A stretch of DNA of 64,000 nt from Carboxylicivirga caseinilyticus (GTDB taxonomy: Bacteria; Bacteroidota; Bacteroidia; Bacteroidales; Marinilabiliaceae): NCBI GenBank assembly GCA_025499705.1, contig JAFMVE010000004.1:1-64000 (forward strand), written 5' to 3'. Each line of letters begins with the position of its first letter. Position 1 is the first letter of the stretch. The translations under genes were made by a program, and so were the position numbers. The notes beneath the pieces are model-generated. The model did not search any database. It was not told where the DNA came from and worked only from the letters and a program-made list of their open reading frames with translations. Of the stretch, positions 4,524-27,544 are shown piece by piece.

Positions 4524-4612
4524 AAATTAAAATATTTATCTCACCTCCTAATTCTTATAGAAATTAAGAATTTAGCCTAACAAGCCTATCTCTTTCAAGT
4601 TAATATATAGCT

Positions 4613-4638
4613 ACAAAAAAAAGGAGGCAAACGCCTCC
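4613..4638 (-). terminator. Rho-independent terminator after the GH92 gene
   Basis: A perfect 6-bp stem GGAGGC/GCCTCC (4623-4628 and 4633-4638) with a 4-nt loop is followed, in the minus-strand direction, by about eight U residues (A-run 4615-4622). It separates the GH92 transcript from the GH2 gene. Confidence 0.8.
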
Positions 4639-4701
4639 TCAACTATTCTCCAATAAACTAATCCAGTGCGAAACGGTATTAATTTATTTTATTTATTCAA
4701 C

Positions 4702-8924: not shown

Positions 8925-8928
8925 TAAT

Positions 8929-11900
8929 TTAGAAAGTTACACTTGCTCCAAACGAATATGTTCTCGACTGAGGATAAGTACCATAATCGATACCTTGAGT
9001 AAGAGTTCCTCCTCCTATTTCAGGATCTAATCCTGAGTATTTGGTGAATGTTAACAGGTTCTGACCTGAGAAGTACAAACGAACATTGGATAACCATGGA
9101 GTTATGTTTCTGAATGTATAACCCAATTGGAAGTTCTTTAAACGCACATATGAACCATCCTCAATATAGAAATCAGACTGTTTAAGATTATATTCTGTTG
9201 TAGCTGCATTCAACCCAAACATAGAATTTGATCCGTTAGCTGCTGTCCAGTGGTTCTTGTAATCTTCAGTTAAAGCAAAACGCTTGTAATCAGCATAGTT
9301 ATAATACTTAAATCCATTAAATATTTCATTACCGGCAACACCCTGGAAGAACAGTGTCATATCCCAGTTTTTATATTCCAAATCAATATTTAAACCATAG
9401 TACCAATCCGGGATCGGACTTCCGATCATCACACGGTCGTTGGCATCCAATACACCATCTGGCTCTTCCAATACTCCGTCGTTATCTTTATCTGTCCATT
9501 GGTCTTTAAATCTGAAGTCTCCAGCTCCAATCGGATCACCAGCTTGTGGACTTGAGGCCACTTCACCATCAGTCTGGAAAACTCCTTCGACCTCATATCC
9601 ATAAAATGCTCCAATTGGTAACCCTTCAGCTGTGCGGGTAACCGAGCCAACCAAACTTACACTACCACTCACGATAGGTACTCCTCCACCTAAACTGGTA
9701 ACTTCGTTCTTTATATGAGAAGCATTCAGATTCACATTAAACTTTAGATCGTTACCTATTTTTCCACGATATCCTAAATCAAATTCAATCCCCTTATTCT
9801 CAACAGTTCCTGCATTAACATAAGGACTTCCGTCGTAACCTGCGTATTCTGCAATGGGTATCTGAACCAGCATATCCTTTGTTTGCTTCACAAAATAATC
9901 AGCTGATAAAGAAATTTTATCCTGCAAAAAGGCTAAGTCAATACCAAAGTTGGTTGACTCAACTGTTTCCCATTGCACTTCTGTGTTGGCCATTTTTACA
10001 GGGGCTGCACCGGCTTGTTCCTGATCGCCAAAAACATAACTATACTCAACTCTGGCATCACTACTCTGAACTGTAGATGTAAAAGAATAAGGATCAATTT
10101 TAGCATTACCAACACGTCCCCAACCTGCTCTAAGCATGATACGATTAACAAGATCTTCAGATAACCAATCCATAAAGGCTTCATCCCTCAATCTCCAACC
10201 AAAGGACATCGATGGGAAATTACCCATTCGTTTATCAGGACCAAAAACTGAAGAACCATCACGACGGAAAGAAGCAGTTAGGAAATATTTACCAGCAAAA
10301 TCATAATTTACACGAGCCAGATAAGAAAACATTCTGATATCTGTTCCCGAGTTCCATGCAGTTGTGCTCTCCAAATCAGTAGATGCCGAAATATATTGTA
10401 ATTCCTCACTATCATTTGGCACATTATTACGCGCTGCACCAAGATATTCATACTTGGTTTGCTCAGCCGTAAAACCTCCCAAAACAGTAAGGTTGTGTTT
10501 TTCTTTTGAGAAAATATATCTGATCGTATTTTCACTTAATACACCATCTGTATCACTTGTTTGTTTTGAAATACTGTTTACAGTTCTTAACTCATTTCCA
10601 TAATTATAAGTTGGATAATAAGTTTTGCTTTTAGTTCTTCTTAAATTCAGGCTTAAAGCACTCTTCAAAAACAGATTTTTTACCGGCTCAAATTGAACAT
10701 ATGAACGAGCAAGAATACTTAATACTTTAGCATTATAAACATCCCTGTTTAGTTGCGCCACGGGATTCGCCAAATCGGAATAAGGAGTAGATGCATACTC
10801 TCCACTTTCCTGATAAACCGGAGTAAGAGGATCCAAACGCTGCGCAAGCGTCAATACACCACTTATTGCATTGCTGGTAACCTGATCGCTGTTTTCATTG
10901 GCAATAGCCACATTAAATCCTGCTTCCCACTTATCTCCCATAAAGTAATTGTTGTTAATGCGGGCATTCAACCGTTCATAAGCTGAATTCAAAACAATTC
11001 CTTCATTCTTAAAATAACCAACACTAATAAGAGAATTCGATTTTTCACTACCTCTTGAGATGGTTGCATTGGCTTTGTAAATCTTACCTGTTTGGGTTAC
11101 TTCATCAAACCAGTTTGTTGTATTGTTTACATTATCAGAAGGCGACAATAGATTTAGAGATGTATATGCACTTGAACCGGTAAAAGCAGCTGCATTATTT
11201 TGCGACTGATTATATATTTCCAACCAATCTGAAGAATTCATCAGATTTGGTTTTTTCCAGGCCTGTTGCACCCCACTCATTAACTCCAATTGCACCTTTA
11301 CATCTTCAGATTTACCTGTTTTTGTTGTAATTAAAACAACTCCATTGGCACCTCTGGAACCATAAATAGCTGTAGCAGAAGCATCTTTTAATACTTCCAT
11401 ATTAGAAACATCACTCGAATTCAGGAATGATATATCATCAAGAAAAATACCATCTACAACGTATAATGGAGAAGAATTATTTACTGTTCCTGTTCCCCGC
11501 ACACGAACAGATAAACCTGAACCCGGTGCACCAGATGTTTGAGTTACCATAACACCAGATGCTCTACCCTGCAATAGAGTAGCTGCACTGGCCACCGGTT
11601 GATTCTCCAAAGCCTCAGCATTTACTGATGAAACAGAACCAGTAATATCACTCTTTTTTTGCACTCCATATCCAACAGCCACCACTTCATCAAGTCCAAA
11701 ATACTCAGGTTCCAACTTAACATTGATTTCAGTTTGATCTCCCACTTGCACTTCTTGTGAAACCATACCAATAAAACTAAAAACCAAAACTTCACCTGAA
11801 TTTACTTCGATGGTATAGGATCCATTTACACTGGTAATGGTTCCCTCTGATGGATTACTTTTTACTGTAACATTAACCCCGGGTAAGGGAATGTTTTGAT

Positions 11901-11994
11901 CATCTTTTACTATTCCGCTTATTGTTTTTGTTTGTGCCTGACCAAAGACTATGATCGAACACAATAAAAACAAGCTCAACAGACTTTTTTTCAT
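8929..11994 (-). CDS. susC: SusC/RagA TonB-linked outer-membrane receptor
   Basis: A 1021-aa protein with signal peptide (about 1-20), an N-terminal CarboxypepD_reg-like domain (residues about 23-100, starting ISGIVKDD), a TonB-box-like segment DEVVAVGYG before the plug domain (QKKSDITGSVSSV), the plug signature LYVVDGIFLDD and DASATAIYGSRGANGVVLITTK, and a C-terminal 22-strand barrel ending in an aromatic residue (ASVTF). It imports oligosaccharides through the outer membrane using TonB energy. The N-terminal extension is the standard DUF4480/carboxypeptidase-like domain; there is no STN domain, so it is not a FecR/anti-sigma-type transducer. No regulator or hybrid two-component system is adjacent. 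Confidence 0.95.
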   Translation of the reverse strand: MKKSLLSLFLLCSIIVFGQAQTKTISGIVKDDQNIPLPGVNVTVKSNPSEGTITSVNGSYTIEVNSGEVLVFSFIGMVSQEVQVGDQTEINVKLEPEYFGLDEVVAVGYGVQKKSDITGSVSSVNAEALENQPVASAATLLQGRASGVMVTQTSGAPGSGLSVRVRGTGTVNNSSPLYVVDGIFLDDISFLNSSDVSNMEVLKDASATAIYGSRGANGVVLITTKTGKSEDVKVQLELMSGVQQAWKKPNLMNSSDWLEIYNQSQNNAAAFTGSSAYTSLNLLSPSDNVNNTTNWFDEVTQTGKIYKANATISRGSEKSNSLISVGYFKNEGIVLNSAYERLNARINNNYFMGDKWEAGFNVAIANENSDQVTSNAISGVLTLAQRLDPLTPVYQESGEYASTPYSDLANPVAQLNRDVYNAKVLSILARSYVQFEPVKNLFLKSALSLNLRRTKSKTYYPTYNYGNELRTVNSISKQTSDTDGVLSENTIRYIFSKEKHNLTVLGGFTAEQTKYEYLGAARNNVPNDSEELQYISASTDLESTTAWNSGTDIRMFSYLARVNYDFAGKYFLTASFRRDGSSVFGPDKRMGNFPSMSFGWRLRDEAFMDWLSEDLVNRIMLRAGWGRVGNAKIDPYSFTSTVQSSDARVEYSYVFGDQEQAGAAPVKMANTEVQWETVESTNFGIDLAFLQDKISLSADYFVKQTKDMLVQIPIAEYAGYDGSPYVNAGTVENKGIEFDLGYRGKIGNDLKFNVNLNASHIKNEVTSLGGGVPIVSGSVSLVGSVTRTAEGLPIGAFYGYEVEGVFQTDGEVASSPQAGDPIGAGDFRFKDQWTDKDNDGVLEEPDGVLDANDRVMIGSPIPDWYYGLNIDLEYKNWDMTLFFQGVAGNEIFNGFKYYNYADYKRFALTEDYKNHWTAANGSNSMFGLNAATTEYNLKQSDFYIEDGSYVRLKNFQLGYTFRNITPWLSNVRLYFSGQNLLTFTKYSGLDPEIGGGTLTQGIDYGTYPQSRTYSFGASVTF

Positions 11995-12246: not shown

Positions 12247-13386
12247 CTATAATTTCCTCACTCCTATACCTGGCAACTCACTTAAAGTAACCTTCCCATC
12301 AATCACCTTCATTCCCTCAAATACATCATTTGATATTAGCAGATTACCATCTAAATCTGCCCAATCAACCAAAGGTGAAAGTTGTGATGCAGCTGATATC
12401 GCACAGGAAGTAGCTGTCATACAACCAATCATCACTTTCATATCCAATGCTCTGGCAATGGTCATCATCTTTTTAGCTGCCAGTAAACCACCACATTTCA
12501 TTAACTTCACATTGATACCTGAATAGACTCCTTTCAAAGGCATTACATCATGTATGGTCTGAAGTGCTTCATCGGCAATAATTGGCAACGGACTATTCTC
12601 CGATAACCAGGCAATCTCATCCATCTTTTCCTTTTCTTTCGACATAGGCTGCTCAACAAATACAACTCCCTGATCTTTTAGCCAATGAATCATATCCAAT
12701 GCTTCCTTTTTATCTGTCCATCCCTGGTTAACATCAACGCATAAAGGTTTATCTGTAACCGAGCGGATCGTACGAATCATCTCCTTATCATTATCCTTGC
12801 CCAGCTTAACTTTTAAAATTTTATATGGGGAAGCCTCCTCCACTTTTTCCTTTACAACATCCGGCTGATCAATTCCAATAGTAAAACTTGTGTTGGGCGT
12901 TTTGGAAGCATCCAATCCCCATATTTTATGTATCGGCTGACCAACAATCTTTCCTACGAGATCATGCAACGCAATATCGATTGAAGCTTTAGCGGCATAA
13001 TTACCAACATCAACTCCATCTACATATGTCAAAATTTCTTCAAGCAAAAAGGGGCTAGTGAATTGCTCCAATTTAATTTGCGACAAGAATTTTGCAGCTG
13101 TGTCGTGCGACTCACCCAGATATGGCGGCATAGCTGCTTCACCATATCCAACAAATCCATCGTATTCAATTTCAACCAACATAACAGGAGTGGTTGTACG
13201 CGAACTGGAAGCAATGGTAAAAGTATGCTTCAATTGAAGGTTATATGGCTTAAAACTTAATTTCATTTTTGATGTGGATCTAAGGTTCTTTTCTTGTTTA
13301 GCATTACACGACACAAAAGAGCTTGCTATCAGGCCAGATCCTGCCAGCACACCTGCATTTTTAATAAAATCTCTTCTATTGGTCAT
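12247..13386 (-). CDS. Dipeptide (L-Ala-D/L-Glu) epimerase, exported, enolase superfamily
   Basis: A 379-aa muconate-lactonizing-enzyme-type protein. Its N-terminus carries a twin-arginine signal (NRRDFIK then a hydrophobic stretch) and a possible lipobox ending SFVSC, so it is exported folded. The barrel has the full catalytic set of dipeptide epimerases: K192-x-K194 (KVK), metal ligands D218 (VDVN), E245 (VEQP) and D272 (ADEA), and the second base K294 (VKLMK). It would convert L-Ala-D-Glu from murein peptides to L-Ala-L-Glu for use as amino acids. It starts 9 bp after the stop of the NlpC/P60 endopeptidase gene, which releases exactly such dipeptides, so both belong to one peptidoglycan-peptide salvage transcript. 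Cytosolic in E. coli (YcjG), but exported forms are usual in Bacteroidota. Confidence 0.9.
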   Translation of the reverse strand: MTNRRDFIKNAGVLAGSGLIASSFVSCNAKQEKNLRSTSKMKLSFKPYNLQLKHTFTIASSSRTTTPVMLVEIEYDGFVGYGEAAMPPYLGESHDTAAKFLSQIKLEQFTSPFLLEEILTYVDGVDVGNYAAKASIDIALHDLVGKIVGQPIHKIWGLDASKTPNTSFTIGIDQPDVVKEKVEEASPYKILKVKLGKDNDKEMIRTIRSVTDKPLCVDVNQGWTDKKEALDMIHWLKDQGVVFVEQPMSKEKEKMDEIAWLSENSPLPIIADEALQTIHDVMPLKGVYSGINVKLMKCGGLLAAKKMMTIARALDMKVMIGCMTATSCAISAASQLSPLVDWADLDGNLLISNDVFEGMKVIDGKVTLSELPGIGVRKL

Positions 13387-14787: not shown

Positions 14788-16032
14788 ATGAAACTTTCAT
14801 TACAACAGCTATTGATTTACCTAATACTATTATTGTGCATACAATTAGTTGATGCACAAAAAACCTTTACCGGAATTGAAGTATTACAGGCAACAAACTT
14901 TAAATCACTTCAAGGTAAACGTGTAGGACTTATTACTAATCCAACGGGGGTTAACAGTCAACTTATTTCTACCATCGATATTTTACACGAGACACCTCTT
15001 GTAAATCTTGTTGCTTTATATGGTCCTGAACATGGCGTAAGAGGGGATTATTCTGCAGGCGATCATGTTGAGTCTTTTACAGACCCTAAAACTCAATTAC
15101 CAGTTTACAGCCTGTACGGTAAAAACAGAAAACCAAACAGCGAGATGCTACAAAATGTAGATATTCTGGTTTATGACATACAGGATATTGGTTCACGTTC
15201 ATACACTTATATAAGTACTCTCGGACTCGCCATGGAAGCTGCTGCCGAGAATAATAAAAAGCTATTAGTACTGGATCGTCCTAACCCATTGGGTGGTGAA
15301 AAAATTGAAGGATTAATTACTGAACCTGAATTTACTTCATTTGTTAGTCAGTATCCAATACCCTACCTGCATAGTATGACAGTTGGGGAACTTGCCTTAT
15401 TCTTAAATGGTGAAAAACTTTTAAACAACGGTATTCAATGTGATTTAGAAGTAATTAAAATGGAAGACTGGAAAAGATCCATGACTTTCGATCAAACAGG
15501 ACTACCTTGGGTGCCATCATCACCTCATATACCAAATGCTCAATCATGCTTTTACTATCCGGTTAGTGGAATTCTGGGTGAATTAATGGTATTTAATATT
15601 GGCGTTGGCTATACACTTCCCTTCCATTTATTTGCAACCGAATGGATGAATGCAGACAGCATTGCCAACAATCTGAATAATCTTCATCTCAATGGCGTCA
15701 TCTTTCGCCCAATACACTTTAAACCTTATTATAGTGTTTCTAAAGGAAAGATGGTACACGGAATTCAGGTACATATCACAAATTACAAAGAAGCTAATTT
15801 ATCCTTAATACAATTTTATGTACTTCAGGAGGCGCATAAACTTTGGCCGGAATACAATGTATTTGAACTATGCTCAGGCGATCGCATCACAATGTTTGAT
15901 AAAGTATGTGGCAGTGATAAACTAAGAAAAGAATTCACAAAAAACTGGCTGGTAAGTGATATTATTCCCCTTTGGATGGATAGCATTGAAGAATTCAGAG
16001 CACAATCTAAAAAATACTATCTATATAACTAA
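14788..16032 (+). CDS. namZ: NamZ, exo-beta-N-acetylmuramidase (DUF1343, GH171)
   Basis: A 414-aa protein with a cleavable signal peptide (about 1-23, ending VDAQ). It is a full-length DUF1343 protein: KRVGLITNPTGVN near residue 44, the YGPEHG motif (78-83) with the conserved Glu/His, DVLVYDIQDIGSRSYTYIST-type segment, RPNPLGG, and SMTVGELA. Members from Bacillus and Tannerella release MurNAc from the non-reducing end of MurNAc-containing glycans. The product would be imported and used by MurK and MurQ encoded 10 kb away in the same cluster. It stands alone on the plus strand, divergent from the NlpC/P60 operon, and ends in a convergent hairpin at 16059-16097. Confidence 0.92.
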   Translation: MKLSLQQLLIYLILLLCIQLVDAQKTFTGIEVLQATNFKSLQGKRVGLITNPTGVNSQLISTIDILHETPLVNLVALYGPEHGVRGDYSAGDHVESFTDPKTQLPVYSLYGKNRKPNSEMLQNVDILVYDIQDIGSRSYTYISTLGLAMEAAAENNKKLLVLDRPNPLGGEKIEGLITEPEFTSFVSQYPIPYLHSMTVGELALFLNGEKLLNNGIQCDLEVIKMEDWKRSMTFDQTGLPWVPSSPHIPNAQSCFYYPVSGILGELMVFNIGVGYTLPFHLFATEWMNADSIANNLNNLHLNGVIFRPIHFKPYYSVSKGKMVHGIQVHITNYKEANLSLIQFYVLQEAHKLWPEYNVFELCSGDRITMFDKVCGSDKLRKEFTKNWLVSDIIPLWMDSIEEFRAQSKKYYLYN

Positions 16033-16119: not shown

Positions 16120-17226
16120 TTAGACCTTGATAAATATCTTTCGTTTGTAAAGAATCCAACCGATAAACCAAAAGAAAATGATATGAGCAATACCAAACAA
16201 TAATGACCCATTCATATTTCCGGCCAACGGCACAAAAACCTTCTGATATAATGCCTGATAACCATTTAAAACATCTTCTCCGGAATTGATATGAATCATT
16301 TTATAAAGGATTCGAACCCAAATACCGGATAATGCATAAATAAATAAAGGATTCATTCCAAAGACCACAAAAAAAGATGTCCACTTTTTATATTCCTTGA
16401 TATCAATGATCCATATCAACACAGCCAGAAACATAGTACCTAATCCCGCTGTGTAAATCACATATGAACCTGTCCAAATTGGCTTATTGATTGGCCAAAC
16501 GAAATCCCACAACCAACCTGCAGCCGTTAAAATAGCACCAACAATCAGCAAATGCAATGGCAACTTAACTTTTTCTATGGTTTTTATAGAACGGCCAACC
16601 AGATAACCTATCAATGTTGTAACAACAGCAGGTAAAGTGCTTAATAAACCTTCAGGATCAAATGCAATGCCAAATCCATGATAAATATGCTGCTCTCCAA
16701 AAAGCCATTTATCAATACCAGTTACAACATTACCATCCAGACTGTATGGATCTGCCCCTCCAAAGAAATAAAGAATAGCCCAATAGGCTAACAAGATTCC
16801 ACCTCCAATATATTGTATGGTACGATACTTAAAAGACAGTACTAACAATGCACTTACGCCATACACTATGGCAATACGCTGTAATACGCCCAATATTCTT
16901 AGATGAGAAAAATCCTGACTCCACTGTGGGAAAGAGTTTAAGAATAAACCAATAGCAAAAATCAGAATTGTTCGTTTTACAATTTTAAAAACCGATTGTT
17001 TATTAAGTTCGCTTCCATATTTAGTAAAAGAAAAGAACATAGATACTCCCATTACAAACAGGAAGAAAGGAAATACCAAATCAGTGGGTGTACATCCATG
17101 CCACTCTGAATGCAGTAAGGGTGGATAAACATACGACCAACTTCCGGGTGTGTTAACCAGAATCATTCCTGCAATGGTAATCCCCCGAAGAACATCGAGA
17201 GCAAGGTAACGTTGTGATTTACTCAT
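16120..17226 (-). CDS. NagX/HGSNAT-like membrane acyltransferase (DUF5009 type)
   Basis: A 368-aa integral membrane protein with about ten predicted helices. The N-terminus RYLALDVLRGITIAGMILVN is the signature of heparan-alpha-glucosaminide acetyltransferase-like proteins, and HSEWHGCTPTDLVFPFFLF contains the His/Asp region expected at the active site. Family members transfer an acetyl group from cytosolic acetyl-CoA to a glucosamine on the other side of the membrane; bacterial NagX genes travel with GlcNAc or MurNAc catabolic genes. In Tannerella a membrane protein next to murK/murQ was proposed to be the MurNAc transporter; I cannot tell whether it is this family, so a transport role remains an alternative. 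Last gene of the minus-strand cluster, 123 bp after the AmpG-like gene. Confidence 0.8.
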   Translation of the reverse strand: MSKSQRYLALDVLRGITIAGMILVNTPGSWSYVYPPLLHSEWHGCTPTDLVFPFFLFVMGVSMFFSFTKYGSELNKQSVFKIVKRTILIFAIGLFLNSFPQWSQDFSHLRILGVLQRIAIVYGVSALLVLSFKYRTIQYIGGGILLAYWAILYFFGGADPYSLDGNVVTGIDKWLFGEQHIYHGFGIAFDPEGLLSTLPAVVTTLIGYLVGRSIKTIEKVKLPLHLLIVGAILTAAGWLWDFVWPINKPIWTGSYVIYTAGLGTMFLAVLIWIIDIKEYKKWTSFFVVFGMNPLFIYALSGIWVRILYKMIHINSGEDVLNGYQALYQKVFVPLAGNMNGSLLFGIAHIIFFWFIGWILYKRKIFIKV

Positions 17227-17349: not shown

Positions 17350-18654
17350 TTAGTTATCTGTTGGTTGCTTTTTAATACCAAATAAAGGATCTATTTTCAA
17401 GAAACGAATAATCACAAATGCCGGGATCGTACAAACCATTACCCAAATAAAAAAGTACTGATAACCTATCATATCCTGTATCCATCCCGAAATCATACCC
17501 GGCAACATCATACCCAAAGCCATAAACCCAGTACAGAATGCAAAATGTGCTGTTTTATGCTCTCCTTCTGAGACATAAATCTGATATAACATAAAAGCTG
17601 TAAATCCAAATCCATACCCAAATTGCTCAATTGCTACTGCAACACTCACCATTATAATCGATTCGGGCAAAGCATAAGATAAAAACACATATACCAGATT
17701 AGGAATATTAATAGCAATAACCATTGGCAACAACCAGTATTTCAGTCCTTTTTTTGAAGCTACAAGCCCCCCTAAAATTCCTCCTATCGTTAGAAAAATA
17801 ACCCCAATAGTTCCATAAACAATTCCCACATCACTGGTGCTCAAACCCAATCCTCCCACTTCCCGGGAATCCAAAAGGAAAGGTGATGCCATCTTCACAA
17901 GTTGAGATTCTCCCAGGCGATAAAAAAGCAAAACTCCTAATATGACCCAAATATCTTTTTTAGCAAAAAAAGTCTGAAATGTCTTACCGAAATCATTCAT
18001 TATCTCTCCAAAGCTTTTTACTTCCTTATCCATATCATCCTGAGGATGTGGCAGTACAAACTTATGAAACAAAGCAAGCAGCAAAAACAAACCGGTAACA
18101 ACATAAAAAGTTAACGACCATGCAAGGGGGATACTTGGACCCTCATTACCAAACAAAGTCATTTCTTCCAACTGACCAGCCAGAAAAACCAAAGCTCCCT
18201 GACCTGTAATCATTGCCAAACGATAAAAAGTACTACGAATACCTATAAAATATGCCTGTTGACTATCATTCAACCCAAACATATAAAAACCATCGGCAGC
18301 GATATCGTGTGTAGCCGAACTAAAGGCCAGTAACCAAAAGAATGCCAATGTTGATTGAAAGAAAAAGCCGGTTGGAATCGTAAAAGCAACTCCTGCCATT
18401 CCTGCTCCAATCAACAATTGCATAGCAATTATCCACCATCTCTTACTTTTTAGAGTATCCACTACAGGACTCCAGAAAGGCTTGATTACCCATGGTAAAT
18501 ATAACCAGGAAGTGTACAAAGCAATATCTGTATTAGAAATATCAAGCTTTTTATACATGATCACTGCCAGTGTCATAACTACCACATAAGGTATTCCTTC
18601 TGCAAAGTATAAGCTGGGCACCCATGCCCAGGGAGATGTAGATTTTTTGTTCAT
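17350..18654 (-). CDS. ampG: AmpG-like muropeptide permease (MFS)
   Basis: A 434-aa MFS transporter with about 12 membrane helices. The N-terminal PWAWVPSLYFAEGIPY segment and LYLPWVIKPFWSPVVD match AmpG-type permeases, which import anhydro-muropeptides or GlcNAc-anhMurNAc by proton symport. The length fits the single-MFS-domain form (E. coli AmpG has two additional helices). It is in a same-strand run with SpoIID, DUF4922, GT2 and the amidase, with a 150-bp gap upstream. Its place among NamZ, MurK and MurQ supports import of cell-wall saccharides; whether the cargo is a muropeptide or free MurNAc is not decided by sequence. Confidence 0.85.
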   Translation of the reverse strand: MNKKSTSPWAWVPSLYFAEGIPYVVVMTLAVIMYKKLDISNTDIALYTSWLYLPWVIKPFWSPVVDTLKSKRWWIIAMQLLIGAGMAGVAFTIPTGFFFQSTLAFFWLLAFSSATHDIAADGFYMFGLNDSQQAYFIGIRSTFYRLAMITGQGALVFLAGQLEEMTLFGNEGPSIPLAWSLTFYVVTGLFLLLALFHKFVLPHPQDDMDKEVKSFGEIMNDFGKTFQTFFAKKDIWVILGVLLFYRLGESQLVKMASPFLLDSREVGGLGLSTSDVGIVYGTIGVIFLTIGGILGGLVASKKGLKYWLLPMVIAINIPNLVYVFLSYALPESIIMVSVAVAIEQFGYGFGFTAFMLYQIYVSEGEHKTAHFAFCTGFMALGMMLPGMISGWIQDMIGYQYFFIWVMVCTIPAFVIIRFLKIDPLFGIKKQPTDN

Positions 18655-18804: not shown

Positions 18805-20136
18805 CTAATATCTCTTCTCCAATCCTGCCCCTCTGAAATAGTGCATTAAGATAGCATTATAATCGTAACCTTTGGCGCCCATTACAGCTGCTCCAATCTG
18901 ACAAAGTCCAACTCCATGCCCCCATCCGGCTCCTTTAAGAGTAAATTTCATTTGCTGTTCTTTTTCTTCTTTTTCTACCACAAAAGCAGAACTATACAGA
19001 TGCGATTCTGACAAAGCCTTACGAATCTCTAACTCTTTGCCAATGATCAATGTCTTTTTATCTCCTACGATTTTCAGTTTTATCAATCGCCCGGAATCAC
19101 CACGTTCAACTGGAATTAAATCCAGAATCAGTCCAAAATCCATACCTGTGCGACGAGCAATCAAACTACTTAAATCCTGTTGTGAATACGTAACCTGCCA
19201 GCGATAAAAATCATTTGTTTCCTGATCATAATCATTTAACACCTGACTTAAAACCTCTTTATCATTGGTATTGCAGAAAGCATCGGGCTCTCCCAAAATC
19301 CACTTTTCGGCTGAGGGTTCATTGTCCAGATCAAGACTAAAGCCTGTTGGAATGGTATCGTTATCCACAAACTTTTGCAGGTAAGGATGATTAACCGGTT
19401 CCCAAACTTTCTCAAACACCTCAACCATACCTCCACAGCATTTTGAGAAACGCGCATCACATATAGCATTGTTATAAGTGAGTACTTCACCCCAGGTTTC
19501 TTTAACAGCCTGCACAACCATAGGTGTATTAGCCCTTGTAATCCCTTGGTAGCGCTGACAATGGTCATCGGCACAAACATCGAAATTAGCATGATCCTCA
19601 CGATCGTACCATCGGATCAACTCTGTTTCTGATTGATAAACCGAACTGTATTTCTCTGTCTCCTGAGCCAACGCTTTATTTTTTTCAATCTGAGCCAACA
19701 ACCAACTACGAGAAATTACTGCATGAGCTTTCAAAAGCTGAAGGGAAGAAGTGGCACTCATTTCTGAAGAGATTACACTCATCAGATAATCTTCTACTGA
19801 AAGAATATTGATAGCCGTGATCTTATCATCTTCAATCAATAGCTTCAGGCTCCCTTTAAACATTTGATCCTCGTCGCGCTCCCAATGAAAATTAATTCCT
19901 ATGGTCACCTTATGAAGCGTAAAAGTTCCTTCTTCATTCTGAGGTTTAAGAGTGGCCCCATTTGTCAGCTGAAAAGTTTGACTACCGTTAGACAGAACTA
20001 TTGAACCATCCTTTAGCTCAGCAACCCACTTATCAGACAGAATCTTACCCTCTTTTGTAACAAAAGGCGAATGTAAAGTAAATTCAAAGCGGGGTTTAAA
20101 TAATATACCCACATTTATTACCGGTATGTGATTCAT
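18805..20136 (-). CDS. SpoIID/LytB-type lytic transglycosylase without signal peptide
   Basis: A 443-aa protein with the SpoIID domain: VEDYLMSVISSEMS with the catalytic Glu (about E125), LKAHAVISRSWLLAQ, and the C-terminal GAGWGHGVGLCQIGA(A)VMGAKGYDYNAIL motif. SpoIID enzymes cleave glycan strands that have lost their stem peptides, giving anhydro-MurNAc ends. A long insert (about 170-330) with several Cys and His (CADDHC, KCCGGMVEV) follows the first motif; that Cys-rich GGM segment is usual for the family. There is no signal peptide or membrane anchor at the N-terminus (MNHIPVINVGIL), which is unexpected for an enzyme of the periplasmic wall. The start overlaps the DUF4922 stop (ATGA), so translation is coupled. 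Confidence 0.88.
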   Translation of the reverse strand: MNHIPVINVGILFKPRFEFTLHSPFVTKEGKILSDKWVAELKDGSIVLSNGSQTFQLTNGATLKPQNEEGTFTLHKVTIGINFHWERDEDQMFKGSLKLLIEDDKITAINILSVEDYLMSVISSEMSATSSLQLLKAHAVISRSWLLAQIEKNKALAQETEKYSSVYQSETELIRWYDREDHANFDVCADDHCQRYQGITRANTPMVVQAVKETWGEVLTYNNAICDARFSKCCGGMVEVFEKVWEPVNHPYLQKFVDNDTIPTGFSLDLDNEPSAEKWILGEPDAFCNTNDKEVLSQVLNDYDQETNDFYRWQVTYSQQDLSSLIARRTGMDFGLILDLIPVERGDSGRLIKLKIVGDKKTLIIGKELEIRKALSESHLYSSAFVVEKEEKEQQMKFTLKGAGWGHGVGLCQIGAAVMGAKGYDYNAILMHYFRGAGLEKRY

Positions 20137-21086
20137 TTTTGAATTGATTTTTCGATTAAAGTTTGAATTAACTCTTCACATTTCTGAGAATCCAGGCAAA
20201 CCTGATTCAGTATTTCTTCCACATCATTTGCTGTTAATTTCTCGTAATCCTCCTGTCGCGGAGTAATAAATACGCCGCCCATATCTACAGATGCAGGACT
20301 AATTAAAATTTGTTCTGTTCCTTCTTTAAAATAACTGGCAGGTCGGTGTAATATTCGAGGAAAAACATGAACCACATATTCACCTTCTTCAAAGTATGAT
20401 AGAACGTTCAACATGGGTTCAACTTCATCTTTTTGACTCTGAACCAACAAGTCATATAATTCATTAAACAAAGAAACGATTGCAGCAGACTCCGAACTCA
20501 TTAGTGTAATCACGCCTCTGTTATAGTTTTTCCATGTATATATAGCCACATCATTGCTTAGACCTGATAACTTTGCAAACCTGCCACTTTTAAAATCCTC
20601 TTCAATAGGCATAAAACCCTTATTACCTGCCTGAAAATGAAAATGATCAGGTGCAGATGCTCCGCATTTGGGTCCATTATAGAACAAGGTATATTCAGGA
20701 AGTTCGTAAGCCAGATCCAACATTGATTTAAAATAAGGCTGAATCAACTGAAGCGTATGTTTTTTGTGTGGAATAGTCAGGTGCTTATTGAAAATTGGAA
20801 AAGGATTAACAAGGATAGTATAGTCCTCAAAATCAACACCACGTTGCTGTTCAGGCCTGTTTTGTTCACATAAAAAACAGGGCCGTTCTTGAATCGATCG
20901 GGCATCCACCTTAGCAGCCGACGATCTGATTCGCTCAGGATTAAACTGAATTTTCACTTCACTTCCTCCTGATAAAATCAAACTCCGGGTCTTCACTAAA
21001 TTCAGACCTTTAAAATTAATTGCTGCCAGATCCCAATTGGTAAGTTGAGATTCTATCAGTTCATTAACCTTATATAATATATCCAT
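20133..21086 (-). CDS. DUF4922 protein, HIT/GalT/Ap4A-phosphorylase-like nucleotidyltransferase
   Basis: About 317 aa, no signal peptide, predicted cytosolic. It has a Cys-pair RPCFLCEQNRP near residue 77, then NPFPIFNKHLTIP, and the segment NGPKCGASAPDHFHFQAGN with H156-x-H158-x-Q160 (numbered from the longer start). The order Cys pair, NPFP, GAS, HxHxQ is that of galactose-1-phosphate uridylyltransferase, Ap4A phosphorylase and GDP-galactose phosphorylase, in which the central His forms a covalent nucleotidyl intermediate. The substrate is unknown; in this cluster a sugar-1-phosphate of GlcNAc or MurNAc is an attractive guess. The start is set to the second Met (MDILYK) because family members begin there; the upstream ATG at 21110 is possible. 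It overlaps SpoIID by 4 bp. Confidence 0.8.
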   Translation of the reverse strand: MDILYKVNELIESQLTNWDLAAINFKGLNLVKTRSLILSGGSEVKIQFNPERIRSSAAKVDARSIQERPCFLCEQNRPEQQRGVDFEDYTILVNPFPIFNKHLTIPHKKHTLQLIQPYFKSMLDLAYELPEYTLFYNGPKCGASAPDHFHFQAGNKGFMPIEEDFKSGRFAKLSGLSNDVAIYTWKNYNRGVITLMSSESAAIVSLFNELYDLLVQSQKDEVEPMLNVLSYFEEGEYVVHVFPRILHRPASYFKEGTEQILISPASVDMGGVFITPRQEDYEKLTANDVEEILNQVCLDSQKCEELIQTLIEKSIQK

Positions 21087-21140
21087 AGTAATCCTTACGA
21101 TTTTAGTCAATATTTAGAAGTTTTATTCCCTGACTTCTAA

Positions 21141-22598
21141 TTACCGCATGGCTATCATTTGCTGACGAGCCTTAAACTCCATGGTTCTGATCTTATCTTT
21201 ATAGAAGTTATGAGCATTCATTTTAACTATATCCAAAGATGCATCGGAATTGTCATCCCAGCGACGACACAAGTACAAAGGATCATATATTCGACCAATC
21301 TGGTAATGACGACTGATATTTAAGCCTAAGGCATAATCCTCACCATAACTTGTATTAGGCACCTTAACCTGGCGCAAAACAGGAGTATAAAAAGCACGTG
21401 GAGCACCCAAACCATTAATTCGCAATGCATTATTACGTCCGTTATCTGGGGTCCATTCTTTATGATCAATTAATCCGGGAGGTATCTCTTCCAATTTAAA
21501 ATTCACCATCTGATAACTTCCTACCACCATGGCACAATTTTGCTCATAAAAGGCTTTTACGATTCGATCCAAAACTGTTTCATCGATATACAAATCATCA
21601 CTATCTAACTGAACAGCAAACTTACCACATCGATCATCTTCAACAGCGCGATTCCAGCATCCACCAATACCCAAATCGTCACGTTCAGGTATTATATGAA
21701 CGATTCTATCATCCTTAAATGACTGGATTATCTCAGTGGTTTTATCCGTTGAATGATTATCCACAATAATGAGGTTAAAAAGAAAATCTGTTTTTTGCTT
21801 TAACACCGATTCAATGGCATCAGCTACTGTTTTCTCGCGGTTTCGGACCGGAATAATAACAGATGCTTCAACAAGAAATTCTTCTTCTGAAAACTCAATT
21901 TGTTTAAATTCAGGCTTCAGATATGCACCAACTTTTTTAAGATGAGCCGTGCAGGCTACTTCCATTTCAATCTGGCGATCACGATTACGAGGATCAACAT
22001 AGTCAAACATTTTCTCGCCCGATTTACGGGTATCCAATTCCACTTCGGTGTACAATAACTCAGGCAAATGGAATAACTCATAGGATTGCGATACTCGCAG
22101 GCGAAGATCGTACATTGCCGCATGGATATAATCAGCATCCATATCTTTAACAGCACTCAGTAAAGCCTCTTTTTTATATAGAATCAGCGAACCAAAATCA
22201 AAATCATCCCTTAAGCTTCCTTGTTGATAATCAACCACCGGATGAGCAGATAATTTCCCTTCCTTTCTTTCATAAAAATCAGCATATACCAACCCAGCTC
22301 CTGTATCATCACATGCTTTACACATTCTCTCCAGGGCATTCATTCCTACCTCAAGGGCCATGGTTTTGGAATACACCACCACATAATCTCCAAGTGATTC
22401 CTCAATTATTTTTTTCCAGGTTGCTGAGGCGAATAAGCCTACTTTTGACACGATTACCGCTACACCCTCCAGATTAACATCTTCAGGTGCCACCACTACA
22501 ATTTTATCCACTAAAGCCGAAGCCTTTAATGCCTTAATGGTTACTTCCAACTCATTGGTTGGAGCAAATGGAAGAATACATGATATTTTTCCGCTCAT
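21141..22598 (-). CDS. Family 2 glycosyltransferase with N-terminal GT-like half
   Basis: A 485-aa cytosolic protein. The C-terminal half (about 243-485) is a GT-A/GT2 domain: ASVIIPVRNREKTVADAI, VDNHSTDKT, and the DXD-type motif LDSDD (332-335) for the nucleotide-sugar metal. The N-terminal half (1-230) looks like a second, degenerate nucleotide-sugar-binding fold starting CILPFAP. No membrane segment. It lies between the amidase and DUF4922 genes with gaps of 11 and 30-54 bp, so all are in one operon. A glycosyltransferase in a wall-degrading operon is unexpected: it could build a glycan from recycled sugars, or its donor could be made by DUF4922. The acceptor is unknown. Confidence 0.85.
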   Translation of the reverse strand: MSGKISCILPFAPTNELEVTIKALKASALVDKIVVVAPEDVNLEGVAVIVSKVGLFASATWKKIIEESLGDYVVVYSKTMALEVGMNALERMCKACDDTGAGLVYADFYERKEGKLSAHPVVDYQQGSLRDDFDFGSLILYKKEALLSAVKDMDADYIHAAMYDLRLRVSQSYELFHLPELLYTEVELDTRKSGEKMFDYVDPRNRDRQIEMEVACTAHLKKVGAYLKPEFKQIEFSEEEFLVEASVIIPVRNREKTVADAIESVLKQKTDFLFNLIIVDNHSTDKTTEIIQSFKDDRIVHIIPERDDLGIGGCWNRAVEDDRCGKFAVQLDSDDLYIDETVLDRIVKAFYEQNCAMVVGSYQMVNFKLEEIPPGLIDHKEWTPDNGRNNALRINGLGAPRAFYTPVLRQVKVPNTSYGEDYALGLNISRHYQIGRIYDPLYLCRRWDDNSDASLDIVKMNAHNFYKDKIRTMEFKARQQMIAMR

Positions 22599-22609
22599 CT
22601 CTATATGTA

Positions 22610-25600
22610 TTATTTATTGTTCTTCATTAAAAAATTCAGAATAGCTTTCATCAGGCTATCTCTTTCCTGCTCTGAAATAATCGTTTCAAACGGGAAGCCG
22701 AAAATAACCGTTTTATAATCACCTTGATATAAGACTGCAGCACTGGCATTGTTTTCATCATATCGAAAAGCAGTTAATGCCTTATCTCCAACAGCTTCTA
22801 TCGCATCAGGCGCTTCAACCGTGTAAATATCCGGACGATAAACCGTATTAAAACATAACTCTCCTTTAAAAACTGATGTTGCATAATCCGTTGCATATAC
22901 ATTTCCACTCTTTACCGCATGGTTCGTTCTCCATTTAAAACCCAAAACATCAGCCGCAAATTTAGCTACAATTGTGTCACCTGTCATATAAATATCAGAT
23001 CCAACATAGGCCCCATTCATAAATATATTTTGATTATTCTTTGTAAGATCAACTACCTTATTCATAAATTCTTTGGTGTAAATCTGATATTGAACTGCAC
23101 TGTCCTGATATGAATAACTCGTCTTTTCTTCGCCTAGAATAATATCAACAGCTTTATATTTTGATGCATCATAATCAGGCTGGCTAAACTCCTCATCACT
23201 AACCGAAACAAAAGAATAACCTGCTTTTAATATTGATTGACCGTGAACAAACACATTATCAAAAGTATTTCCTTTAATTATCTTACCCTCGTAATCAGCA
23301 TAGCTTGCCCCCCAACCTGGACTATCATCATCCAGCCATTGAGATTTTCTGTTATAATCGTACTGAAACCCGGTAAAGGCCAAATCAAATTTATCAGGCA
23401 CACCCTGATCTTCCCACCAGGCCACACCTGCAAAGTCACCTTCATCGATAAAAGCCGGAGCACTAACCCTGTCAAAAGCATTTACTACCAAAACTTTTTC
23501 TGAATCATCACCTAAAATTCCTAATGACAATATCTCACTTGCAAAACTTTCACCACCATCATTTATTGCTGTTACCTTGTAACTATAAATACATCCAACT
23601 TCAGGCTGAGGCAATTGATAATATGTACCTTCAACGATAGTACCATTATCAAATCCATTATCATTGATTCGTTGATAAACTTTATATTTTGTTGGTGTGG
23701 CAGATGGTTCCAATGAATCAATAACCGGTTGCCAGCTTAATTCATATGTCCCATTCTTTTGCCGAATGGCTAAATGATCAACCATCAATGGTTGAACAAC
23801 ATATTCACGGCCTTCCTGAAAAGCAAGAAATTTCAGCATACCTTTATAAACAGCCCGGCATACATCAAACCTGAATTCAGGGTCAAGTCCATAGCGCATA
23901 TCTGCCACATTCTGATGCGACAACAACTCCAGTAACATGGTTGGCACATTTGGACGCCAGGCTTCGGAATATTGTTTATCCCATAAACCACGACGTGTCC
24001 AGTCCGTTTTATACAAGGCCCTGATATCATCTACGATTTGCGTTTGGATAATATCAGCCAAATCACGACTCGCCAATTTAGATTGACCATTTGGAAATTT
24101 ACCATCATCCCGTTTAGTACTGAAAATTCCCAATGTTCCAATAACGGAATCATTGGGTGTAATACCTGCATCAGTATGAAATGCAAAAGCCAGATCTATG
24201 GGAAGATTCAACCCTTCAGCATTCCGATTCCTGGTAGGTCCGTTTGGCGCTCCCATCAGGTAATCCACCCATTCGCCACGACTCTGATAATCGTCGTTAT
24301 AATCATTTTTCTCATCATTCAAACTGAACACAAGCGTATCGGGCATGCCTGCATACTGAAGCCAATACCGGGCAGCTTCCATATAACGCGGACGACCAGA
24401 TAATTTGGCCGAGAATATTTCTGTATCAACTTTAACAGCTTCCACATCAGTATTGCCCGAATTATTTAACGACCATTGATTAGGAATCACCTCATCCGAA
24501 GGCTTGCGTGCTACATTACCCATACCTCCACCCAACCTCACAGCGTCAAGTGATATATTTCCATTGCCTGAAACTTCTATTAAAGCCTCCTCAGCACTCT
24601 TAAAATGAAAGGTTCCAAGATAAATCCATGTTCCACCTCCCATTGTTTGATTTACCCAATAACTGGTTTCTCCACCACTATGAAAAACTTTGTAAGTAAC
24701 CTCCTTTGAATTATCCTGATTTTGCTGATAAGAAACATAAACAGCATAATCACCCGTTTCGGGCACTTTTGCTTTGTACTCTGCCACTTTACCACTTGCC
24801 GCTACAACCTCTAAAGATGTTCCAGTTTGAAAAGGATTATCTCCCACAAACAAAGTGTCTTTGTAGGCAAAACCTTTCTGATGCTTTATTTCTAAATTCT
24901 TTTCAAGAGAGAATTGCGCTTTAGATGATGAAAAATCATTGTCAATAATTACTTCGTTGGATTGCAAACACCTTTCACGAGGCAAGAACACATTGGCACC
25001 TGCATTTTCCAACATCGGAACCAGATAAGGCAACACATAAGCCATGGGTGAAATATCTTCGACCGATCCATACAGCCTAGCTCGCTGCCACTCCCATCTA
25101 TCCAGTTTCGATTCGTAACACCAACCATGACTATGCCATAAAGCAATCAGCTTATCAGATAAACCCTGAGAATATTCCAACTGACCTTGCATGTGTATAA
25201 ATCCAACTTTTTCTTTTCCCTGAGCTATTCGATTCTCATCAACCTCCTGACTTGTACGATAAATATTTGGAACCAGCTGAGACAATTCATAGCCATTAGT
25301 AAAAACCTGAACTTCGTAATCTTTAACTCTTCTATTATGGTGCTTTGATAGATTATTTTTAAATTCTGAAACCATTTCTGATCGCCATGGCAAATAAGAA
25401 AGCACTGTATTAAAAAAATAGTTTACCTGATTAGCTCTTTCATCAATCTGTAAAGAATCAAGTCTAATAATTCCCAACCCATCCCATTGAATCAAAGGAT
25501 TATGCCAATCAATCATGGATTTATTCAATCGCTTCTCTATTCTATCAGAATGAGTATTTTGAGCATCTATAGAATGCACTACTATAATCAGGATTAACAT

Positions 25601-25645
25601 TATTCCTGTTATTATTCGCAAGTCGGGAGAAATTACTTTTTTCAT
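22610..25645 (-). CDS. N-acetylmuramoyl-L-alanine amidase split by a golvesin/xanthan-lyase-like domain
   Basis: A 1011-aa secreted protein with signal peptide (about 1-28). An amidase_3-like fold is divided: the first part has ALWHSHGW (H171/H173) and the later YGSVEDIS (E196), then an inserted beta-sandwich (about 255-375, VGDNPFQTGTSLEVV to SLDAVRLGGG) of the golvesin C-terminal/xanthan-lyase type, after which the fold resumes with AFAFHTDAG and MLLELLSHQN, the expected second Zn ligand His and catalytic Glu. A fibronectin-III-like domain (about 610-705) and a C-terminal alpha/beta GATase-like segment follow. It would cut the amide bond between MurNAc and the stem peptide, making the naked glycan that SpoIID-type enzymes need. 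First gene of the minus-strand operon, with a consensus promoter at 25673-25703. Confidence 0.8.
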   Translation of the reverse strand: MKKVISPDLRIITGIMLILIIVVHSIDAQNTHSDRIEKRLNKSMIDWHNPLIQWDGLGIIRLDSLQIDERANQVNYFFNTVLSYLPWRSEMVSEFKNNLSKHHNRRVKDYEVQVFTNGYELSQLVPNIYRTSQEVDENRIAQGKEKVGFIHMQGQLEYSQGLSDKLIALWHSHGWCYESKLDRWEWQRARLYGSVEDISPMAYVLPYLVPMLENAGANVFLPRERCLQSNEVIIDNDFSSSKAQFSLEKNLEIKHQKGFAYKDTLFVGDNPFQTGTSLEVVAASGKVAEYKAKVPETGDYAVYVSYQQNQDNSKEVTYKVFHSGGETSYWVNQTMGGGTWIYLGTFHFKSAEEALIEVSGNGNISLDAVRLGGGMGNVARKPSDEVIPNQWSLNNSGNTDVEAVKVDTEIFSAKLSGRPRYMEAARYWLQYAGMPDTLVFSLNDEKNDYNDDYQSRGEWVDYLMGAPNGPTRNRNAEGLNLPIDLAFAFHTDAGITPNDSVIGTLGIFSTKRDDGKFPNGQSKLASRDLADIIQTQIVDDIRALYKTDWTRRGLWDKQYSEAWRPNVPTMLLELLSHQNVADMRYGLDPEFRFDVCRAVYKGMLKFLAFQEGREYVVQPLMVDHLAIRQKNGTYELSWQPVIDSLEPSATPTKYKVYQRINDNGFDNGTIVEGTYYQLPQPEVGCIYSYKVTAINDGGESFASEILSLGILGDDSEKVLVVNAFDRVSAPAFIDEGDFAGVAWWEDQGVPDKFDLAFTGFQYDYNRKSQWLDDDSPGWGASYADYEGKIIKGNTFDNVFVHGQSILKAGYSFVSVSDEEFSQPDYDASKYKAVDIILGEEKTSYSYQDSAVQYQIYTKEFMNKVVDLTKNNQNIFMNGAYVGSDIYMTGDTIVAKFAADVLGFKWRTNHAVKSGNVYATDYATSVFKGELCFNTVYRPDIYTVEAPDAIEAVGDKALTAFRYDENNASAAVLYQGDYKTVIFGFPFETIISEQERDSLMKAILNFLMKNNK

Positions 25646-25863: not shown

Positions 25864-26718
25864 ATGATACTAATAGCAGATAGCGGATCTACCAAGACAG
25901 AATGGCGACTTGTTTCAAATGATAATAACAGTAACGAAACATGCATCACTAAAGGGATTAATCCATTTTATCAAGACACTGCTGAAATCCTGCAAAGTTT
26001 ACAAGAGGAATATACATTAAATAATAGAAAGCCCCAATTCATTTTCTTTTATGGTGCTGGCTGCGCCAATCAAGAAAAAAACAAAGTTGTTGAAAATGCC
26101 TTATCTGCATTTTTCACCTCAGAACACATATCTATCAACAGCGACCTGGTTGGTGCTGCCCGATCTCTTTGTCAAACAGAAGAAGGCATTGCCTGCATCC
26201 TGGGCACAGGCTCCAACTCATGCCATTTCGACGGAGAAGTTATTACTAAAAATGTTTCACCATTGGGTTTTATTATTGGTGATGAAGGCAGTGGAGCTGT
26301 TTTAGGGAAAAGATTAATGGGCGATATTCTAAAGAATCAGCTTTCTTCACCATTAGTTGATTTGTTTTTTAATACTTACAAAACAGATCGAGCAGAAATT
26401 CTGGATCACATTTACAAAAAACCTTTTCCGAATCGTTATCTGGCTCAATACACAAAATTTATTTCAGCCAACGTTCACAATAAAGAATTAGAAGATTTAG
26501 TGATTTCATCCTTCAAGGATTTCATTCAACGAAACCTTCTTCAATATAACAACTTACCCCAACTACCTATTCATTTTACCGGAAGCATTGCCTTTTATTT
26601 CAAAGTTCAACTCGAGAAGGCTTTGGCAACTTTTAAACTAACCGCAGGTAAAATAAGCCAATCACCTATGGAGGGATTAATTCATTACCACCTACAGCAA
26701 AACATGAACCATGAATAA
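25864..26718 (+). CDS. murK: MurNAc/GlcNAc kinase (MurK, BadF/BadG family)
   Basis: A 284-aa cytosolic ASKHA-fold kinase. The phosphate-1 loop is DSGSTKTEW (6-14), with NPFYQD near 33, GTGSNSC near 114 (phosphate-2/adenosine region) and IIGDEGSGAVLGKR near 137, all typical of BadF/BadG/BcrA-type amino-sugar kinases. It would phosphorylate imported MurNAc (and perhaps GlcNAc) at C6. The 3' end overlaps the start of murQ by 8 bp, so kinase and etherase are coupled, which favours MurNAc as substrate over GlcNAc. Length is normal for the family. Confidence 0.88.
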   Translation: MILIADSGSTKTEWRLVSNDNNSNETCITKGINPFYQDTAEILQSLQEEYTLNNRKPQFIFFYGAGCANQEKNKVVENALSAFFTSEHISINSDLVGAARSLCQTEEGIACILGTGSNSCHFDGEVITKNVSPLGFIIGDEGSGAVLGKRLMGDILKNQLSSPLVDLFFNTYKTDRAEILDHIYKKPFPNRYLAQYTKFISANVHNKELEDLVISSFKDFIQRNLLQYNNLPQLPIHFTGSIAFYFKVQLEKALATFKLTAGKISQSPMEGLIHYHLQQNMNHE

Positions 26719-27544
26719 CAAAACAAAAAAAGAAACCAGCGTCACCGAATCATCATCTCATTACGATAATCTGGATAAAATGAATGTTGAGGAATTACTT
26801 ACCAGTATCAACAAAGAAGACGCTACGGTTCATCTTGCTGTTGAAAAAGCCTTACCACAAATAACCGCATTGACTGAAAGAATAGTTAAACGGATGAAAA
26901 AAGGTGGAAGGATATTTTACCTGGGAGCAGGAACCAGTGGACGTTTAGGCGTTTTGGATGCATCCGAACTACCTCCAACATTCGGAGTTCCCAATAATAT
27001 GGTTATAGGATTAATAGCCGGAGGAGATACTGCATTACGACAAGCTGTTGAATCAGCTGAAGATGATCCGGAGATGGCCTGGAAAGAATTAAACGAATAT
27101 AAAGTAGATGAACTGGATACGGTTATAGGGATTGCAGCTTCAGGGACAACCCCCTATGTTATTGGAGGCATTGAACTTGCCCGTAAAAACGGATTGCTTA
27201 CAGGCTGTATCACCTGCAATCCAAATAGTAAGGTAGCTGAAGTAACCGAATTCCCCGTAGAAGCCATTGTTGGTCCTGAATTCGTTACCGGAAGTACCCG
27301 AATGAAAGCCGGAACAGCTCAAAAGATGATTTTAAATATGATCACCACAACCACAATGATTAAACTCGGCAGGGTAAAAGGTAACAAAATGGTGAACATG
27401 CAATTAACCAACAAAAAACTAATAGACAGAGGTTCGCGAATGATAATGGACGAAATCAAACTGGATTATTCCGAATCAAAGGATCTACTATTAAAATATG
27501 GTTCAGTTAAAAAAGCTATTGACGCCTACAAAGATAAACCTTAA
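26711..27544 (+). CDS. murQ: MurNAc-6-phosphate etherase
   Basis: A 277-aa SIS-domain lyase that removes the lactyl ether from MurNAc-6-P, yielding GlcNAc-6-P and D-lactate. Diagnostic segments are FYLGAGTSGRLGVLDASELPPTFGV (from about residue 73, containing one of the catalytic Glu), ESAEDDPE, GIAASGTTPYVIGG and GSTRMKAGTAQKMILN. Length and motifs match E. coli MurQ closely, apart from a slightly shorter C-terminus. It overlaps murK by 8 bp and is followed by a strong hairpin terminator. Confidence 0.96.
   Translation: MNNKTKKETSVTESSSHYDNLDKMNVEELLTSINKEDATVHLAVEKALPQITALTERIVKRMKKGGRIFYLGAGTSGRLGVLDASELPPTFGVPNNMVIGLIAGGDTALRQAVESAEDDPEMAWKELNEYKVDELDTVIGIAASGTTPYVIGGIELARKNGLLTGCITCNPNSKVAEVTEFPVEAIVGPEFVTGSTRMKAGTAQKMILNMITTTTMIKLGRVKGNKMVNMQLTNKKLIDRGSRMIMDEIKLDYSESKDLLLKYGSVKKAIDAYKDKP

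Follow-up and report, generated by a model that had tools for sequence, protein, structure and literature searches.

The window, a 64,000-nucleotide stretch of the Carboxylicivirga caseinilyticus genome (contig JAFMVE010000004.1, positions 1 to 64,000), contains an operon associated with peptidoglycan salvage. We analysed three adjacent genes of this operon, called the trio here, that encode a SpoIID/LytB-family protein, a DUF4922 protein, and a family 2 glycosyltransferase (GT2). The operon lies on the minus strand from 25645 to 16120 in the order amidase-like, GT2, DUF4922, SpoIID, AmpG, and MurT-like, and is adjoined on the plus strand by the gene for NamZ and by genes for a BadF-type kinase and MurQ (25864-27544). 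There is a gap of 11 bp between the amidase-like gene and GT2 and one of 54 bp between GT2 and DUF4922, and the DUF4922 and SpoIID genes overlap in an ATGA. The first four genes, their coordinates and spacing are as described in an earlier note made from the sequence of this DNA. The start codon of DUF4922 is the ATG at 21086, with a TTG at 21110 as a possible alternative. The nearest named relative we met is Carboxylicivirga linearis, with 81% identity for SpoIID, 82% for GT2, and 73-74% for DUF4922.

Table 1. Predicted gene products of the trio and of the genes around it
Product	Positions in window	Strand	Features
SpoIID/LytB-family protein without export signal	18805..20136	-	catalytic Glu125; H182/C188/H192/C193 zinc-type motif
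DUF4922 protein, predicted cytosolic	20133..21086	-	HxHxQ active-site motif (H148, H150, Q152); phosphorylase/GalT-type HIT fold
GT2 glycosyltransferase	21141..22598	-	apparently degenerate N-terminal GT-A-like domain followed by GT-A domain with intact motifs
Amidase-like protein, exported	22610..25645	-	sub-threshold Amidase_3 match; Golvesin_C inside; orthologue of Tannerella forsythia Tanf_08345 ('xanthan lyase' in print)
AmpG-family muropeptide importer	17350..18654	-	TIGR00901 174.5 bits (curated cut-off 350); orthologous by position to T. forsythia AmpG
MurT-like membrane protein (NagX-type)	16120..17226	-	NF046061 163.7 bits, below cut-off 480
NamZ exo-N-acetylmuramidase (YbbC), exported	14788..16032	+	
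BadF-family sugar kinase, MurK-like by position	25864..26718	+	PF01869 31.9 bits (cut-off 31.5)
MurQ N-acetylmuramate-6-phosphate etherase	26711..27544	+	TIGR00274 315.7 bits (cut-off 302)

The SpoIID protein scored above the curated cut-offs of PF08486 (85.5 bits, cut-off 23) and TIGR02669 (173.9 bits, cut-off 83.3), and below that of the equivalog model for stage II sporulation protein D (TIGR02870, 123.9 bits versus 234.75). Conservation was counted on full-length orthologs, which were 98 of 99 for SpoIID, 105 of 106 for GT2, and 114 of 116 for DUF4922. The catalytic E125 of SpoIID, in a stretch that aligns to 4rwr and 5i1t, is kept in 98/98, as are H182, C188, H192, and C193, a putative zinc motif of the C. 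difficile H/C/H/C type. By alignment and spacing these residues match E101 and H134/C140/H145/C146 of C. difficile SpoIID, the latter being its zinc motif (PMC6221140; this and the other papers are cited from the accessible parts of their text). Compared with 4rwr, the window's protein has additional residues both ahead of the domain and inside it. A GT4 glycosyltransferase gene adjoins SpoIID in 15 genomes (L075:10397-11503 and 14 other loci), in some of them in the order SpoIID-GT4-GT2-DUF4922; its best NCBIfam scores, BshA included, are below the cut-offs.

The DUF4922 domain was matched with 205.5 bits (cut-off 23.6), and its H148 and H150 are present in 114/114 orthologs and Q152 in 113/114. 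This HxHxQ motif was matched by hhalign to H164/H166/Q168 of Escherichia coli GalT in a local alignment (one target, P 0.008) and not in a global one. With the NCBIfam GalT models the protein scored 14.9-18.6 bits, below their cut-offs, which range from 628 to 1021, and a sequence search of the PDB returned nothing useful. Using an alignment of 57 of 79 DUF4922 sequences from the named loci plus the window, we obtained an AlphaFold model with a predicted local distance difference test score (pLDDT) of 94.1 and a predicted template modelling score of 0.92. The closest solved fold was yeast Ap4A phosphorylase Apa2 (Foldseek E 3.3e-11, template modelling (TM) score 0.54-0.60), followed by Arabidopsis ADP-glucose phosphorylase (E 2.7e-6, TM 0.37) and GalT (E 1.1e-4, TM 0.31-0.40). 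The fold search weakened the idea that DUF4922 is a GalT. The Pfam model for Ap4A phosphorylase also weakly matches two DUF4922 fusion proteins. Some plant GGP-type proteins have been placed in the DUF4922 superfamily (PMC9871823, PMC11047344). Apa2, ADP-glucose phosphorylase, and GDP-L-galactose phosphorylase share their fold with DUF4922, which differs from Apa2 in sequence (15-17% identity) and in lying in a peptidoglycan operon. A GNAT acetyltransferase gene is located between GT2 and DUF4922 in three loci (L046, L059, L060), and in L052 one lies beside DUF4922 near the contig end; the mechanism considered below does not yet account for the former.

The GT2 protein matched PF00535 with 83.2 bits (cut-off 23.3), and its motifs DSDD (332-335, including D332, D334, and D335), ED (420-421), and RRW (445-447) are kept in 105/105 orthologs. 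Its first half resembles a GT-A domain that has degenerated (probability 11% and P 0.003 by hhalign). A model built from 55 of 72 GT2 sequences, with a pLDDT of 92.0, matched the folds of chondroitin polymerase, heparosan synthase, and UDP-GlcNAc-bound TarS/TarP (GlcNAc, N-acetylglucosamine). Chondroitin polymerase K4CP has two GT-A domains. The window protein shares the common GT2 GT-A fold with these enzymes and differs from them in its first domain, which looks degenerate, and in its salvage-operon context. The amidase-like protein matched Amidase_3 with 17.0 bits, below the cut-off of 27, and has a Golvesin_C domain inside. The same match was sub-threshold in five of six scanned orthologs and was not listed in the sixth, from T. 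forsythia. H173, E224, H490, and E573 are invariant in 46/46 amidase-like orthologs and may form the Amidase_3 metal and catalytic set. The family assignments of the earlier note are confirmed for SpoIID, DUF4922, and GT2, whereas the amidase label is weaker than it had stated and is the weakest of the four.

We examined the N-termini with a crude hydrophobicity proxy, not SignalP, omitting genes that were cut by a locus end or had no start near the expected position; a few genomes are represented twice. A signal-like N-terminus was found in 0/99 SpoIID, 0/116 DUF4922, and 1/106 GT2 orthologs, whereas the proxy flagged 40/43 NamZ and 28/46 amidase-like control proteins. When any in-frame upstream start was allowed, it flagged one SpoIID, one DUF4922, and two GT2 proteins. 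We also fetched 12 other SpoIID paralogs of the phylum, and all 11 that were readable have a signal-like or lipoprotein-like start as judged by eye. In a tree that combined alternate cytosolic members (50 of 99) with these 11 exported paralogs, the cytosolic group is monophyletic and separate (support 0.887). In addition, DUF4922 and SpoIID form a single open frame in L092 and L162, and GT2 and DUF4922 form a single frame of 825 residues in L064. Each fusion is known from one assembly; an indel error is possible for L092, and L162 comes from a metagenome-assembled genome. These results support the prediction that all three trio proteins are cytosolic, as the earlier note had proposed, and its statement that among the four genes only the amidase has an export signal holds by this proxy here and in relatives. 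The window-type SpoIID shares its family, catalytic Glu, and C. difficile-like zinc motif with the lytic transglycosylases of B. subtilis, C. difficile, and Waddlia, but it lacks an export signal and is separate from exported paralogs. Characterised SpoIID members are exported to the wall compartment; neither the N-terminus counts nor the fusions to DUF4922 indicated this for the window-type protein.

We surveyed the distribution of the trio in a phylum sample of 247 genomes drawn evenly from the phylum, an order sample of 99 genomes from the window's order that covers more than 90 families, and a named set of 50 genomes chosen via DUF4922 loci. In the phylum sample SpoIID was counted at 400 bits or more (36 of the 69 genomes with any match), DUF4922 was found in 37 genomes after three weak ones (G027, G136, G160) were excluded from 40, and GT2 was found in 36. 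All three genes are present in 35 of the 37 genomes with any of them; G156 lacks GT2 and G223 lacks SpoIID. Among 80 loci found via DUF4922, GT2 and DUF4922 are same-strand neighbours less than 400 bp apart in 69, as are DUF4922 and SpoIID in 62, so the packing is not due to chance and the neighbourhood is conserved. SpoIID is not nearby in 13 of these loci, comprising six operons and seven loci on short contigs or with dispersed genes; in the six cases SpoIID is located elsewhere in the genome. SpoIID is present in 49/50 named-set genomes, the exception being a 1.7 Mb assembly. Of the 36 phylum-sample genomes with SpoIID and DUF4922, 15 have the two genes no more than 20 kb apart, 17 have them on separate contigs, and four have them on one contig at a greater distance. 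In the single-contig genomes G124 and G188 they are 3.15 Mb and 0.6 Mb apart. Because SpoIID and DUF4922 are unlinked in 21/36 genomes, the trio is not only an operon inherited whole.

The trio is also tied to AmpG. A match to the AmpG family (TIGR00901, E 1e-20 or better) was found in 85/247 genomes of the phylum sample and in 37/37 of those with the trio; the family's own cut-off of 350 bits was reached in 0/247. In the order sample, AmpG orthologs (at least 50% identity, which dropped G315 with its sole match at 37%) and SpoIID mark the identical 27/99 genomes. AmpG orthologs with an insert of about 200 residues after residue ~166 were observed (L050:6382-8283, L065:7169-9067, and 11 frames of 545-646 codons), and a Pfam scan of the L050 insert gave no domain. 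Downstream of AmpG there is a BadF kinase gene and a GH3/beta-lactamase fusion in L059 and L063, and the GH3 fusion in L061.

AnmK and NagZ are parts of muropeptide recycling in E. coli. We found AnmK in 17/37 trio-bearing genomes of the phylum sample, compared with 47/48 genomes that have an AmpG match and no trio (Fisher p 1.8e-8); the exception among the latter is G004, whose single match to the AmpG family has an E-value of 1e-32. In the order sample, AnmK was present in 4/27 SpoIID genomes, one of which (G278) holds only AnmK pieces, and in 64/72 others (p 4.7e-12). Both p-values ignore phylogeny. Within the named set, AnmK occurs in 17/50 genomes, and it was not found in the genome of T. 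forsythia. We rejected a strict replacement of AnmK by the trio as too strong a proposal, because 17/37 trio genomes keep AnmK. The six operons without SpoIID had suggested that AnmK is gained where SpoIID is lost, and both parts of this idea were wrong: AnmK was not found in the genomes of the six operons, and SpoIID is encoded elsewhere in them.

The operon itself is already known from T. forsythia. In strain ATCC 43037 (contig082, L168) the order is amidase-like, GT2, DUF4922, SpoIID, AmpG, NamZ, MurT, kinase, and MurQ, and the orthologue of the MurT-like protein directly precedes the kinase and MurQ orthologs. The cluster from Tanf_08345 to Tanf_08385 is one transcript by reverse-transcription PCR and is under GppX (PMC5388701). 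Its first six genes were labelled xanthan lyase, gtf, gtf, lytB, ampG, and ybbC, with Tanf_08350 and 08355 given as 'glycosyltransferase' and 08360 as 'lytB, amidase enhancer precursor', and the operon was described as also encoding protein glycosylation enzymes (PMC5388701). The window shares gene content and order with this ampG-murTKQ operon and differs from it in encoding NamZ, the kinase, and MurQ on the opposite strand. In the accessible literature on DUF4922, cytosolic SpoIID or lytic transglycosylases, and the Tanf/BFO loci, a search that mostly covered papers outside subscription, we found no function for the trio, and the accessible part of PMC5790795 names none of its members. Thus, the earlier note was correct in calling the route undescribed as regards function and not as regards the operon. 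Muramic acid recycling in mycobacteria follows another route (PMC13041923).

AmpG of T. forsythia is functional, with GlcNAc-anhydroMurNAc and GlcNAc-MurNAc (MurNAc, N-acetylmuramic acid) as its major substrates, although the authors left larger substrates possible (PMC7670621). The organism can live on both disaccharides without a predicted AnmK, and how it goes on to metabolise anhydroMurNAc was, in the authors' words, still to be explored (PMC7670621). The trio proteins have no export signals and retain their active-site residues, they are found in the same genomes as one another and as AmpG, and AnmK is frequently absent. From these sequence data we consider it highly probable that they form one cytosolic module coupled to AmpG. 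The co-occurrence, the tie to AmpG, and the fusions also support the shared role beside muropeptide salvage suggested by the earlier note. Whether the trio can stand in for AnmK is evenly poised. Compared with E. coli-type recycling by AmpG, NagZ, AnmK, and MurQ, the importer family, MurQ, and the inferred substrates are common to both. What differs here is the presence of a cytosolic SpoIID, a GT2, and a phosphorylase-like protein, and the lack of AnmK in 20/37, 33/50, and 23/27 trio or SpoIID genomes of the phylum sample, named set, and order sample.

The following reactions are proposed for this module. AmpG would import GlcNAc-anhydroMurNAc and GlcNAc-MurNAc. As these disaccharides have no internal MurNAc-GlcNAc bond, SpoIID is proposed to open the anhydro ring: its chemistry at MurNAc C1, with water as the acceptor, would convert the 1,6-anhydro form to GlcNAc-MurNAc without adenosine triphosphate (ATP). 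SpoIID of Waddlia is a lytic transglycosylase on sacculi and a muramidase on denuded glycan; the latter activity implies that water can attack MurNAc C1 as the acceptor for SpoIID, and in the same study a muramidase product was not seen for B. subtilis SpoIID (PMC6635528). Acting in reverse, GT2 could transfer GlcNAc to a nucleoside diphosphate (NDP) and release MurNAc, and DUF4922 could then phosphorolyse NDP-GlcNAc to GlcNAc-1-phosphate and return the NDP. A precedent for a glycosyltransferase used in breakdown is sucrose synthase. In sum, disaccharide and inorganic phosphate would yield GlcNAc-1-phosphate and MurNAc, the latter to be used by MurK/MurQ or by an AmgK/MurU-type route. The chemistry of the earlier note, in which DUF4922 activates a sugar-1-phosphate and SpoIID cuts imported muroglycans, is probably not the right one. 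The closest solved fold to DUF4922 is Ap4A phosphorylase, and the main substrates of T. forsythia AmpG lack the bond that SpoIID would cut (PMC7670621).

A cytosolic module acting on AmpG-imported wall sugars is our best overall explanation, held at slightly below even confidence. The exact reactions proposed are rather unlikely to be correct, and about as unlikely is it that water-based opening of anhydroMurNAc and an NDP relay serve as an ATP-sparing alternative to NagZ plus AnmK across Bacteroidota. Several observations count against the explanation. The window's own genome keeps AnmK (G000:C90:141786-142820), as do the 17 trio genomes mentioned above. MurQ and AnmK are both absent from seven trio genomes, which shows that the exit through MurQ is not obligatory and that the product needs another way out. 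ADP-glucose phosphorylase is no closer to DUF4922 than GalT by TM-score, and only Apa2 stands out. The GT4 gene beside SpoIID in 15 genomes is not explained by a simple breakdown route. The co-occurrence counts ignore phylogeny throughout, the samples have a few genomes in common (G000, G230), and the AmpG matches of the phylum sample may mix orthologs with paralogs. Lastly, T. forsythia grew to an optical density of about 0.8 on anhydro digests versus 1.3 on muramidase digests, and its growth on free anhydroMurNAc was restricted (PMC7670621). Both results argue against a very active ring opener, and the latter fits a disaccharide substrate better than a monosaccharide.

The main rival is an anabolic version along the lines of the earlier note. 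In it the proteins are likewise cytosolic and use imported sugars, with DUF4922 producing an NDP-sugar and GT2 assembling a new glycan or primer that SpoIID then trims. GT2 does resemble synthetic tandem GT-A enzymes, a phosphorylase can in principle run toward NDP-sugar, and a second glycosyltransferase, the GT4, adjoins SpoIID in 15 genomes. By contrast, the fold of DUF4922 is nearest to a phosphorylase, the positive association with AmpG and the negative one with AnmK point to processing of imported material, and no gene for a flippase or exporter was noticed among the trio's neighbours, though most recurrent neighbour families are unannotated. On balance we regard the anabolic version as unlikely, though not by any means negligible.

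A clearly weaker proposal is that the trio serves to make or remove a glycan signal or glycoconjugate within the cell, its link to AmpG being one of co-regulation only. GT2-DUF4922 is located away from AmpG in many genomes, and the T. forsythia operon is said to encode protein glycosylation enzymes too (PMC5388701), yet every trio genome of the phylum sample (37/37) has an AmpG-family match, the AmpG-orthologue and SpoIID sets of the order sample are identical, and the SpoIID catalytic residues are kept in 98/98. Export of SpoIID by an unrecognised route to act on the sacculus, leaving only GT2 and DUF4922 in the cytosol, is very improbable: the SpoIID proteins of PMC6635528 and PMC6221140 act on the wall outside the cytoplasm and the sequence is compatible with non-classical export, but 0/99 orthologs are signal-like at the likely start (1/99 at any start) versus 11/11 readable paralogs, and DUF4922 and SpoIID occur fused in single chains. 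We give as little credence to shared ancestry and operon hitch-hiking without a shared pathway, which the neglect of phylogeny and the correlated distances of the three proteins (0.88-0.91 over 71 loci, as common descent alone would give) would allow, since SpoIID and DUF4922 are both kept in the 21/36 genomes where they are apart, more than 90 families are represented in the order sample, and there are two kinds of fusion.

Farther from the trio, the window encodes an L-Ala-D/L-Glu epimerase-like protein with a Tat-type signal (12247-13386, minus strand). Three of its orthologs near trio genes (L123, L167, L077) start with RRxFI/RRxFL-type stretches, and this stem-peptide epimerase may be exported here. 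A likely polysaccharide-use cluster is located at 1469-11994, with SusC-like (8929-11994), SusD-like (7302-8924), and two large glycosidase-like genes, as judged by eye from the translations.

The cytosolic module proposed here may be an unrecognised way for bacteria without the usual enzyme to use the wall sugars they import. The trio provides concrete candidates from one operon for the anhydroMurNAc gap in T. forsythia (PMC7670621), and the same role is predicted for Bacteroides, Ignavibacteria, and the other relatives we met. For the DUF4922 proteins of bacteria, a type of reaction is proposed as well. If the proposal is true, a family of wall-cutting enzymes would have a metabolic role inside cells, and bacteria living on little energy would recover the glycosidic bond rather than spend ATP.

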